From: Acidobacteriaceae bacterium
GTDB lineage: Bacteria > Acidobacteriota > Terriglobia > Terriglobales > Acidobacteriaceae
Length of the DNA stretch: 61,080 nucleotides
Assembly (NCBI GenBank): GCA_025934135.1
Contig: JAICYR010000002.1
Location: 1-61,080 of the forward strand
Direction of reading: 5' to 3'
Shown here: positions 3,997 through 32,847 of the stretch, in pieces
How the letters are laid out: each line of letters begins with the position of its first letter
Numbering within the stretch: position 1 is the stretch's first letter
Translations under genes and position numbers: made by a program
Notes under the pieces: model-generated
Database searches by the model: none
Told to the model about the DNA's origin: nothing
What the model saw: only the letters and a program-made list of their open reading frames with translations

Positions 3997-4187
3997 CGCA
4001 CACCTCCCGTCTCTGCAACTGCAATCGAGTGCTTACGAGGACGGCCCGGTCTGCGTTTCGTTTCTCTCGAATGACCTCTCAGCCTCCTCTCGCACAAGCC
4101 ACAATAAACCTTGCTTTCTTCCTGGGTGCGAAACCATAACCCCCCGCACCCCTCGCAAATTTTCAGATATACGCGCGAATAAACCAT
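3993..4187 (-). CDS. small zinc-ribbon protein with AT-hook-like tail
   Basis: CEGCGGLW...YCGLC two CxxC pairs, then RRPGRPRK; ATGA overlap with the downstream gene. Confidence 0.6.
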   Translation of the reverse strand: MVYSRVYLKICEGCGGLWFRTQEESKVYCGLCERRLRGHSRETKRRPGRPRKHSIAVAETGGVR

Positions 4188-4602
4188 GAATTCTCCAGGC
4201 GGATCTCACGCCCGCGGTCGTTTCTTTCTTCTCCGCGGGGCACTGCAAGGGTTTGCTGCGTGTTCTAATCACAGCCCACTCTTCGCATTGGTTAAAAGAA
4301 ATGGCGCGCGGATCCAGGACAGGAAATCAGTGCTTACAACGCCGACGGCTCGTTTTGCGCTCGCGCCTTGCTCGACGCAATGTGCAACAGCATCGAAATG
4401 CGATGTGAGCACCACATTCTGATTTGGATGATTAGACCTTTGGCGAAAGTGTTTCCGACTTTATTACTGGGTCTTGCGAACGTCAATCGCCGCATCGCGC
4501 CTGGCGCGATATCGACTTGCGGCTACTCTTTAGTCACACCCTGATGGCTGATAAACGCTACCGGCTTGCTTTGCAATCAGCAAACTTCTTAGTAGGGGTG
4601 TA

Positions 4603-5331
4603 TTGCTTAAAGCCAAAATTCCACAGATGAATTTTTCCCAACTCCACGAGCGCCTTCGCGCGGAAATGGCTCGCCGCATTGACCGCGGCCAACTCACCGG
4701 TACGCTTCTCGCTCGTCAGACCGGACTCCAGCCCTCTCATCTTTCCAATTTCATCCGCCGCAAACGGCGCCTCAGTCTTCCGGCTCTCGACCGTGTACTC
4801 GCCGCTCAACTGCTCAGCCTCGAAGACCTCCTTCCAGACTCTCCCCGCACCGGCATCCAGTCCGGTTTTGACGATGCCTCCATCGTGCCGCTCGTCTCGC
4901 ATGAAACTGCTCTGCGATCTCCGGCCATCAACCAGCGCTCCGTCCTCGACCTCATCCATCTACCAGCAGGCTCGCTCGATCACCTTCGTCCCCGTCGCAC
5001 GCTCTCCCGGCGCGAATGGCAGCGTTTCCTCGCCGTTCGTCTCACTGCTGCGCAGGCCCGCCCCATGGATCCGCTCCTCGTTCCCGGCTCAATCGTCGTC
5101 ATCGACCGGCACTACAATTCCCTCGCCCCCAGCCATCCCGCGCGACCCAATATCTACGCCATTGATGTCAACAACGACCTTGTTTTTCGTTACGTAAGCT
5201 ATGAGGCCAATCGCCTCGTCCTGCGCCCCCGCTCTCTCGACTCCCGTGTCGAAGTGCTCCGGCTCGCCCCCGACGAACCGCCCTCCTCCTGCATCGTTGG
5301 CAGACTTTGCATCACCATCGCTGAACTATGA
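4603..5331 (+). CDS. XRE-type HTH regulator with S24/LexA-like C-terminal domain (start may be 4627)
   Basis: LARQTGLQPSHLSNFIRRKRRLSLPALDRVL HTH; DPLLVPGSIVVIDRHYN S24-like segment. Confidence 0.7.
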   Translation: MLKAKIPQMNFSQLHERLRAEMARRIDRGQLTGTLLARQTGLQPSHLSNFIRRKRRLSLPALDRVLAAQLLSLEDLLPDSPRTGIQSGFDDASIVPLVSHETALRSPAINQRSVLDLIHLPAGSLDHLRPRRTLSRREWQRFLAVRLTAAQARPMDPLLVPGSIVVIDRHYNSLAPSHPARPNIYAIDVNNDLVFRYVSYEANRLVLRPRSLDSRVEVLRLAPDEPPSSCIVGRLCITIAEL

Positions 5332-30217: not shown

Positions 30218-30925
30218 TCAAAGACCACAAATCGCCCTCGCGTGTTCCAAGTCCGTGGAAAGCTGCAGATTAACTGCGTTGAAGTCTGCCTCCAGAGTCG
30301 CCGGCATCTGACCTGGCGTACCGTAATCGTCCTTATTGGAAGTGACCAGCACCAACGGGCAAGCAAAACCATAAGCAGAGAGTTGCACCGCTACTTCAAG
30401 GCAATGCTCTAAGATCACGCAGTCGGCGACCGAGCCTCCGCGCTCAGCTGGAGCACGCCTGGCCATGATTCTCTGCATCGCCTTTTGAAAGCACAGGTCA
30501 TCTTGCTCGATTGAGGCTGATGTGTTCATAAGAGATAGAGCGAGCTGTTCTAGGCTTGCGCCGATATTGAATCCAGCCAAAGAAACATGACTGGGTCTGG
30601 ATGCGGGCGGAAGATTTTCGAGTACGTCATGAATCCGGCCAATCGCAGCATCGGTCTTGATAATGTGCCGACTGACTTCATTGCGAACCGTTGGAACATT
30701 ACGGTTCCATTCGTCGCGGACTTGTTGAATCTGGATTGGCCACACCCTGCGCGGAGTAGCCGCCGCCAGTGCGGCGATCGTTCGCGCCGCCGTAACGTTC
30801 TCGACTCGCATCCTCATTGTCGTGCGTAGCACGTCAAGAAGTGAGCAGGTGTCGAGAAATATGACAGGTGCCGGGTCCTGATTAATGGCCTGTACTGCCT
30901 GCGGTATGAGCATTGAACCAATCAC
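30218..30925 (-). CDS. PIN-like domain protein (start GTG 30925 or ATG 30913)
   Basis: VIFLDTCSLLDVLR N-terminal Asp motif, SVADCVILEHCLE, PLVLVTSNKDDYG acidic motifs as in PIN/DUF4935-type nucleases. Confidence 0.65.
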   Translation of the reverse strand: MIGSMLIPQAVQAINQDPAPVIFLDTCSLLDVLRTTMRMRVENVTAARTIAALAAATPRRVWPIQIQQVRDEWNRNVPTVRNEVSRHIIKTDAAIGRIHDVLENLPPASRPSHVSLAGFNIGASLEQLALSLMNTSASIEQDDLCFQKAMQRIMARRAPAERGGSVADCVILEHCLEVAVQLSAYGFACPLVLVTSNKDDYGTPGQMPATLEADFNAVNLQLSTDLEHARAICGL

Positions 30926-31560
30926 TGGTGGGAGTCGTAGCGATCAAGGAGCCCTCGAGCAAATTCATACTCAAGGCGGAGATCCGAAGTTATTTCATCG
31001 GACCAGCCATAAGATTCTGTCAGAAGGCGGCCGAGCATCGTTGTGTCTAGAACAGCACGATCCTTATGCGATGAGATGAGAAAGTCGTACCAACGCTCGC
31101 GATCCCTTGGATGAGCTGATCCGGTAGACTTATTCGCGGATAGCGAAAAGGATTCAAGAAGCTGTATTGTTCGATTTGAGAGTCCGAAGTGGCTCGCGTC
31201 AACATCGGCATCGGTAAGGAAACTCCGAAACCCCAATTCGGTTGCAGCCTGCTTTGTGGCGTGCTCGTAAAAATCGGCGACAATTCGGTTGTAAGCGTCA
31301 ATCCCCAAACGTGATGAATCGGTTGGGATGACGTTTGCAACCCATGCTGCCGAGCGCTCGGAATGATACGAGATCCACACCTCAGCGTTCGGTAACCCGT
31401 CGCGGGATGAGCAGGCGAAACAGAGATAGGATTCCCTGAGTTTTTTCTCTGCGCTTCGGTTTCTTTTCCACCCGGTGGGGAGGTGCGCTTCAATCGCCGC
31501 AGCAAGTTTGCTCAGTTGCTCGAGTTCGCACTCGACGAAGAGTTCGCGATGTATTTTCAT
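30922..31560 (-). CDS. uncharacterised protein (212 aa) upstream of and overlapping the PIN gene
   Basis: Same-strand ORF whose TGA overlaps the candidate GTG start of the PIN gene; no domain recognised by eye. Confidence 0.65.
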   Translation of the reverse strand: MKIHRELFVECELEQLSKLAAAIEAHLPTGWKRNRSAEKKLRESYLCFACSSRDGLPNAEVWISYHSERSAAWVANVIPTDSSRLGIDAYNRIVADFYEHATKQAATELGFRSFLTDADVDASHFGLSNRTIQLLESFSLSANKSTGSAHPRDRERWYDFLISSHKDRAVLDTTMLGRLLTESYGWSDEITSDLRLEYEFARGLLDRYDSHQ

Positions 31561-31727
31561 TCACAACTCCGTGATGGATCACTTGGTCTCGTGGTAATGG
31601 GAATTATAGCGGTCTCCCGGTCCCAGCACTTTCCAAATCACAGATGAGCGTGCCGCCGGTCCCTCGCGATTGAAGCCCCGGGATGACATGGGCACCAGCA
31701 GGCCGGACTCGGATGCGACAGTTACTG

Positions 31728-31767: not shown

Positions 31768-31807
31768 CAAGGAAGCTTCGTATCATGGCATGGCTTCAGC
31801 CCATGCT

Positions 31808-31897
31808 GAAAAAATCAGCTCCGAAGGAGCGCACCTTGCTGCCGCAGGCCCGAGCGGAGTCGCAGACGAAGCGAGCCGCCCCCACGCCGCCAGCGGC
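31808..31897. repeat. about 90-bp repeat, copy A (left of RelE/XRE module)
   Basis: gaaaaaatcagctccgaaggagcgcaccttgctgccgcaggcccgagcggagtcgcagacgaagcgagccgcccc...cgccgccagcggc; nearly identical to 32756..32847. Confidence 0.9.
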
Positions 31898-32217
31898 TAC
31901 GCCACGATTTCCAGCCCCTTTTTCTCCACCAGAGACAAGAGCTTAAGCGAAGGCCCCTGTGGATGCTTCTCTCCCCGCTCCCATTTGCTCACCAGGCTCG
32001 GAGTCACGTTGAGGTACGCCGCAAAAACCGCCTGACTTGCCTTCTCCCTCGTACGCAGCGCACGAATCTTCCTGGGAGTCATCTTCTGGATAGGCGTGAG
32101 GCAAAGCGCGTCGAATTTCCGCATCGTCCTCTTGTCAATCCCACCCGCGCGGTGCAGATCGGAAGCCGTCTCATGAACAGCCGCGAGCGCCGCACTGCCA
32201 AACTTATTTCCACTCAT
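31897..32217 (-). CDS. XRE-family antitoxin
   Basis: MTPRKIRALRTREKASQAVFAAYLNVTPSLVSKWERGEKHPQGPSLKLLSLVEKKGLEIV HTH; ATGA overlap with toxin gene. Confidence 0.9.
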   Translation of the reverse strand: MSGNKFGSAALAAVHETASDLHRAGGIDKRTMRKFDALCLTPIQKMTPRKIRALRTREKASQAVFAAYLNVTPSLVSKWERGEKHPQGPSLKLLSLVEKKGLEIVA

Positions 32218-32615
32218 CTCCCGACCTCCTCCTGAACTCTGAAGAAAACTCCATCGTCGACAAACCTTGCCATCTCGGCCTCCGTGTGGCCAAGAACGAT
32301 GGCCGCCAACTCCCGGAACGCCACCAGGTCATTTGCCTTAATGTTCGCCAGGTCTTTCTTCTCGAATCCATAAACATAAACCGCCCGCTTGTTCCTCTTA
32401 AACAGAATGATCGAGCGCGAACCTCCCGACTTTCCCTGCCCGGCACGCGCAATGCGCTGCTTGATCACATCTCCACCCAAGTCCGCGTCGATTGATCCAT
32501 CGTTGGCAGGTTGAGCGGCCTTCCACAAGTCCGCATCCGTGATGCGGGCCTTTCTGGCAAAACGAGCAAACGCCTTGTTCTTGTAAACGAGGACTTCATC
32601 GGGACTTTCGCTCAC
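32214..32615 (-). CDS. RelE-type toxin (DUF1044-like)
   Basis: DLGGDVIKQRIARAGQGKSGGSRSIILFKRNKRAVYVYGFEKKDLANIKANDLVAFRELA. Confidence 0.9.
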   Translation of the reverse strand: MSESPDEVLVYKNKAFARFARKARITDADLWKAAQPANDGSIDADLGGDVIKQRIARAGQGKSGGSRSIILFKRNKRAVYVYGFEKKDLANIKANDLVAFRELAAIVLGHTEAEMARFVDDGVFFRVQEEVGR

Positions 32616-32684: not shown

Positions 32685-32755
32685 TCCGTCCCTAAGCTCG
32701 TGGTGAACCTCTAACCGAGAAACTCAGAACGTATCGGCATGCCTCCCGCCATTCC

Positions 32756-32847
32756 GAAAAAATCCGCTCCGAAGGAGCGTACCTTGCTGCCGCAGGCCCG
32801 AGCGGAGTCGCAGACGAAGCGAGCCGCCCCCTCACGCCGCCAGCGGC
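32756..32847. repeat. about 90-bp repeat, copy B (right of RelE/XRE module)
   Basis: Near-identical to 31808..31897, same orientation. Confidence 0.9.

Follow-up and report, generated by a model that had tools for sequence, protein, structure and literature searches.

A two-gene locus in the genome of an Acidobacteriaceae bacterium raises the question whether a PIN-like protein and the larger protein encoded in front of it constitute a new toxin-antitoxin (TA) or defence pair. In the majority of known PIN toxin systems, the antitoxin is small and binds DNA. The locus belongs to contig C295, one of 300 contigs in an assembly of 3.7 Mb, and is read from the minus strand; it lies within a stretch of 61,080 nucleotides that was analysed as a whole and is called the window here. 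The initial annotation had proposed two co-directional ORFs without stating their strand, with the stop codon of the first ORF either overlapping a GTG start or lying 8 nt from an ATG. Both ORFs are found as proposed (Table 1), and the second gene offers both starts, a GTG within a 4-nt GTGA overlap and an in-frame ATG 8 nt past the partner stop. As read from the sequence, a Shine-Dalgarno motif comparable to the one preceding the partner gene is not evident ahead of the PIN start.

Table 1. Positions of the gene pair and of neighbouring features in the window
Feature	Positions	Strand	Remarks
Partner gene, 212 aa	31560..30922	minus	ATG start, TGA stop
PIN-like gene, 235 aa/codons from GTG	30925..30218	minus	alternative in-frame ATG at 30913
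GTGA, 4-nt overlap	30922..30925	minus	partner TGA stop / PIN GTG start
Probable Shine-Dalgarno motif GGAG	31567..31570	minus	6 nt before partner ATG; read from sequence
RelE toxin gene, then XRE/HTH_3 antitoxin gene	31897-32615	minus	RelE: PF06296, 3e-41
Direct repeat, 83 bp, two copies	31801-31883 and 32749-32831		95% identical; bracketing the RelE/XRE genes

The pair had also been placed about 0.3 kb from a RelE/XRE module and close to a repeat cluster. The 212-aa gene follows the end of the XRE gene at a distance of 336 bp, and the repeat cluster corresponds to the two-copy direct repeat around the RelE/XRE genes. Further copies of this repeat were not found in the rest of the assembly, and it may represent the boundary of an insertion or duplication. 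The RelE/XRE genes show the toxin-first order of HigBA-like systems and form an ordinary type II TA module.

In single-sequence searches of about 395 other Acidobacteriota genomes neither gene was found, apart from one weak match to a long single-gene PIN_12 protein, and the pair is present in 1 of about 400 genomes of this phylum, the window genome included. Plasmid searches revealed the adjacent pair on plasmids of Sinorhizobium chiapasense and S. meliloti. A degenerate-peptide scan of assembled genome contigs with the partner yielded one locus, the pair in a Singulisphaera MAG, which also encodes a second, divergent pair; the corresponding scan with the PIN protein gave no match. Linkage was determined in 45 planctomycete genomes from the order of this MAG. 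The PIN profile matched 12 of them at 16 loci, with the partner directly upstream at 15 of the 16; the single locus without partner encodes a 381-aa single-gene PIN_12 protein. Conversely, the partner profile matched 15 loci in these genomes, each followed by a PIN gene (15/15). In all homologous pairs checked, the two genes overlap by at most 4 nt or stand no more than 6 nt apart (-4 to +6 nt). Thus, the pairing of the PIN and partner genes is real and spans Acidobacteriota, Planctomycetota, and Alphaproteobacteria. The absence of neighbouring homologs in other genomes had been set beforehand as a refuting observation, and the planctomycete loci together with the two Sinorhizobium plasmids show the opposite.

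Both proteins are conserved across phyla with identities of 24-40%, and both genes are constrained. In the planctomycete pair L053/L054, dN/dS values (NG86) are about 0.13 for the partner and 0.12 for the PIN gene, and in L051/L052 they are 0.25 and 0.22, respectively, which indicates purifying selection on both genes. Owing to this conservation and to dN/dS values of about 0.12-0.25, the pair is more than two chance ORFs. Pairwise divergences of PIN and partner proteins are correlated (Mantel r 0.77, 0/10000 permutations), a result that shared ancestry alone would also produce. Frame breaks in the PIN or the partner gene occur at five loci (L049, L057, L058, L061, L063), and one planctomycete paired PIN gene is cut at a contig end.

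The motifs VIFLDTCSLLDVLR, SVADCVILEHCLE, and LVTSNKDDYG, on which the PIN identity had been based, are all found in the downstream protein. The sole Pfam match of this protein is PIN_12 (PF16289, formerly DUF4935) with an E-value of 6.6e-4 and 20.5 bits, which is below the cut-off of 32 bits. For the homolog from S. meliloti the PIN_12 match reaches 7.6e-15 and 56.2 bits against the same cut-off, and the profile matches all five family members first tested (5/5). In 12 divergent PIN homologs, the residues D25, T26, C27, D31, R34, E72, A149, R152, P159, D168, and N197 are invariant; D25, E72, D168, and N197 presumably follow the order of the acidic site of PIN domains. The profile match and the invariant acidic residues uphold the PIN identity, and the window protein is predicted to be a divergent PIN_12 nuclease. 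This assignment rests on sequence, since an AlphaFold2 model computed from two sequences was poor (mean pLDDT 53.5) and a Foldseek search with it gave nothing meaningful. PDB matches of the PIN profile were rejected as coiled-coil artefacts. In PIN_12 proteins, as in the paired PIN protein, the profile match spans the whole PIN core. PIN_12 relatives encountered in these searches outside the pair are mostly longer single-gene proteins of about 335-390 aa without a partner, in contrast to the paired PIN proteins of about 230-260 aa. One of these longer proteins (351 aa), from another acidobacterium (L047 on contig 38 of G141), is encoded next to a putative DNA methyltransferase gene and a SIR2-like gene; judged by eye, this neighbourhood is a probable defence cluster. 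A profile search for the PIN protein in viral contigs gave no match, and tblastn searches with both proteins gave no match in phages.

The partner had been described as a protein without recognised domain and without obvious DNA-binding motif, and both statements hold. The window protein has no domain in Pfam, NCBIfam, or PADLOC, the wider family has no convincing match in PHROGs or Pfam, and RHH, AbrB, Phd, or HTH domains of the kind found in VapB were detected neither with Pfam in 14 members nor with NCBIfam in the window protein. Thus, the family is missing from the domain libraries searched. The structural model (mean pLDDT 85.3, pTM 0.62) consists of an alpha/beta N-terminal half (about residues 1-116) and a helical C-terminal half (about 129-211). 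No PDB entry matched the model at E<=0.001 in Foldseek; a viral protein of 115 aa (A0A345MLQ5) aligned over about 83 columns with a probability of 1.00, an rmsd of 2.1, and an E-value of 3.5e-3. A PDB sequence match of the partner profile to Crov588 disappeared once the alignment was enlarged. Conserved positions in 14 members are W31, F138, A142, W157, F160, L176, L180, G185, W186, L194, and L205. They are mostly aromatic, hydrophobic, or glycine residues, which would suit a protein with a structural or binding function better than an enzyme. One clade carries the motif FSxxANKSTGxAHPxDxxRWxxF in the C-terminal half, as does the window protein. This half resembles a 110-aa protein from another acidobacterial genome (L020, 1510-1842; hhalign 94.7%), which belongs to DUF1889 (PF08986; Pfam 4.9e-11), the family of YoaC from E. 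coli (PDB 2es9). The 110-aa protein carries NxSTGxxHP, similar to ANKSTGxAHP in the partner. However, PF08986 matched none of 14 partners, and the resemblance is a lead only, because E. coli YoaC itself was not detected from the partner and the link is therefore transitive.

The composition of the pair agrees with the accessory-DNA setting assumed at the outset. In the window, its GC content is 53% compared to mostly 58-68% in the surroundings, and its GC3 is 0.54-0.56, whereas the long genes closest to it have values of about 0.80; this composition marks the pair as recently acquired. In the nearest relative (G694) a neighbouring isoaspartyl-peptidase-like gene is conserved and the DNA beyond it differs, so that synteny does not provide a clean empty site. 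The flanks of the pair also differ from genome to genome. On the conjugative plasmid pRRI128_3 of S. meliloti, a type II CBASS operon precedes the pair, and 161 bp separate its SAVED-2TM gene from the pair. This copy alone adjoins CBASS genes, none being found near the window copy or in the other flanks inspected. The planctomycete pairs inspected are located among unrelated genes, and a general association of the pair with defence islands is therefore not supported.

Three partner genes stand alone, with no PIN gene in their vicinity or anywhere else on the record, and all of them are located on phage-like elements. On viral contig L010 the lone partner lies between tape-measure and distal-tail genes, and on the prophage-like viral contig L011 an Abi_alpha gene precedes it and an integrase is close to it. 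On plasmid7 of Fischerella its neighbours encode the large and small terminase subunits, which indicates that this plasmid is probably phage-derived. Beside the lone partner in the tail cluster of L010, a 312-aa gene without assigned function is located on the opposite strand (4080-5018) in a moron-cassette-like arrangement. A weak partner-profile match in another genome (L017 in G564) was a chance hit that overlaps other genes and contains an internal stop. Altogether, 18 of 18 cellular or large-plasmid copies of the partner are paired with a PIN gene, and 3 of 3 lone copies are on phage-like elements. Under the assumption that location has no bearing on pairing, the chance of such a split is 1/1330, a figure to be read with the loci being non-independent and the sample not unbiased. 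In the partner tree the lone copies fall inside the clade of the window protein, without resolution.

From these data, the pair is probably an uncharacterised TA-like or virus-defence module. The explanation to which a somewhat better than even chance can be given is a horizontally acquired two-gene TA-like module consisting of a PIN RNase and a partner that inhibits or restrains this nuclease, and the best reading is a type-II-like one, in which the partner is a protein that inhibits or regulates the predicted RNase. The downstream gene would encode a PIN-fold metal-dependent RNase with putative toxicity, and the upstream gene a two-domain partner that would be translated first, bind directly to the nuclease, and keep it inactive. 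The stop/start overlap probably couples translation of the nuclease to that of the partner. Alternatively, the partner might restrain the nuclease until a trigger, for example phage infection, sets it free. TA modules typically have the partner first, coupled translation, mobility, and patchy occurrence, and these same features make the TA-like reading the most likely one. As in type II systems, two adjacent co-directional genes are kept as a pair (15/16 and 15/15 loci). The usual autoregulation of TA modules is not evident, because the partner shows no recognisable DNA-binding domain. Several further points speak against the TA-like reading. In size the partner exceeds most antitoxins, and its model (pLDDT 85) shows a folded protein, not a short disordered neutraliser. 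The three phage-like elements carry it without a PIN gene, so that it may also have a role of its own. In addition, the PIN_12 score of the window protein lies below the cut-off, and its structural model is of too low a quality to support a PIN fold.

The same folded, two-domain model is compatible with a different division of labour, in which the partner would serve a two-protein anti-phage system as sensor or guide, recognising a phage product and recruiting or activating the PIN nuclease. Defence would then need both proteins, and the PIN protein alone would be harmless. The position of the pRRI128_3 pair directly 3' of the type II CBASS operon, the Abi_alpha gene adjoining a lone partner on a phage contig, and the location of longer partnerless PIN_12 proteins near Shedu, Abi, and DNA-methylase/SIR2-like genes would fit such a system. 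However, TA modules usually look like this pair, with overlapping genes, the partner first, and no third component. In addition, the planctomycete pairs are not located in large defence islands, and a partner that activates killing would be less readily expected alone on phages. With roughly one chance in its favour to three against, this function of the partner is a minority reading.

Regarding the lone partners, the inhibitory reading can be extended. The pair might be a PIN-nuclease defence or TA system whose folded antitoxin represents a new class, and phages might have captured the antitoxin gene by itself and carry it as counter-defence; this proposal is tentative and should be regarded as improbable rather than favoured. 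Phage proteins that block TA systems are a precedent, as reported for TifA acting against ToxIN (PMC10853763). The lone phage partners would offer a direct test case for counter-defence via antitoxin capture.

A role outside genetic conflict, as a housekeeping pair of a PIN RNase and an RNA- or protein-binding cofactor in RNA processing, is unlikely. RNA processing is another known task of PIN domains (PMC3710099), and the purifying selection on both genes would suit such a function, but a very patchy occurrence (1 of about 400 Acidobacteriota genomes, 12/45 planctomycetes of one order), broken copies (L049, L058, L061), plasmid carriage, and foreign composition argue against it. Very unlikely is a VapBC system proper whose VapB has diverged strongly. 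It would explain why the PIN gene follows another gene and overlaps it by 4 nt. It would explain neither the size of the partner (212-230 aa), its alpha/beta plus helical model, and the lack of an RHH, AbrB, Phd, or HTH domain detected by Pfam or NCBIfam, nor a PIN_12-like nuclease that exceeds VapC proteins of typical, generally known size by about 100 aa.

In the literature searched, to which subscription papers and supplements did not belong, no description of the pair was found, and DUF4935 and DUF1889 are each named in a single paper; a prior listing in a TA prediction database is possible. If the TA-like reading is true, the different, folded partner would constitute a new antitoxin or regulator family across Acidobacteriota, Planctomycetota, and Alphaproteobacteria, and a role would be suggested for PIN_12 proteins. 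With VapBC systems the pair shares the two-gene operon with an upstream partner and a downstream PIN protein, the D/E/D acidic site, the overlapping genes, and the mobile and patchy occurrence. In contrast to VapBC, the partner is large and folded with no detected DNA-binding domain, the PIN protein groups with PIN_12 and not with VapC families, and neutralisation is putative. As a DNA-binding antitoxin was looked for and not detected, the pair is not filed as VapBC. Folded antitoxin domains such as Panacea have been proposed as sensors in the promiscuous NetFlax TA network, in several nodes of which PIN domains recur (PMC10440598). Although no Panacea domain was detected in the partner, the pair resembles this network in combining a folded partner with a PIN domain.
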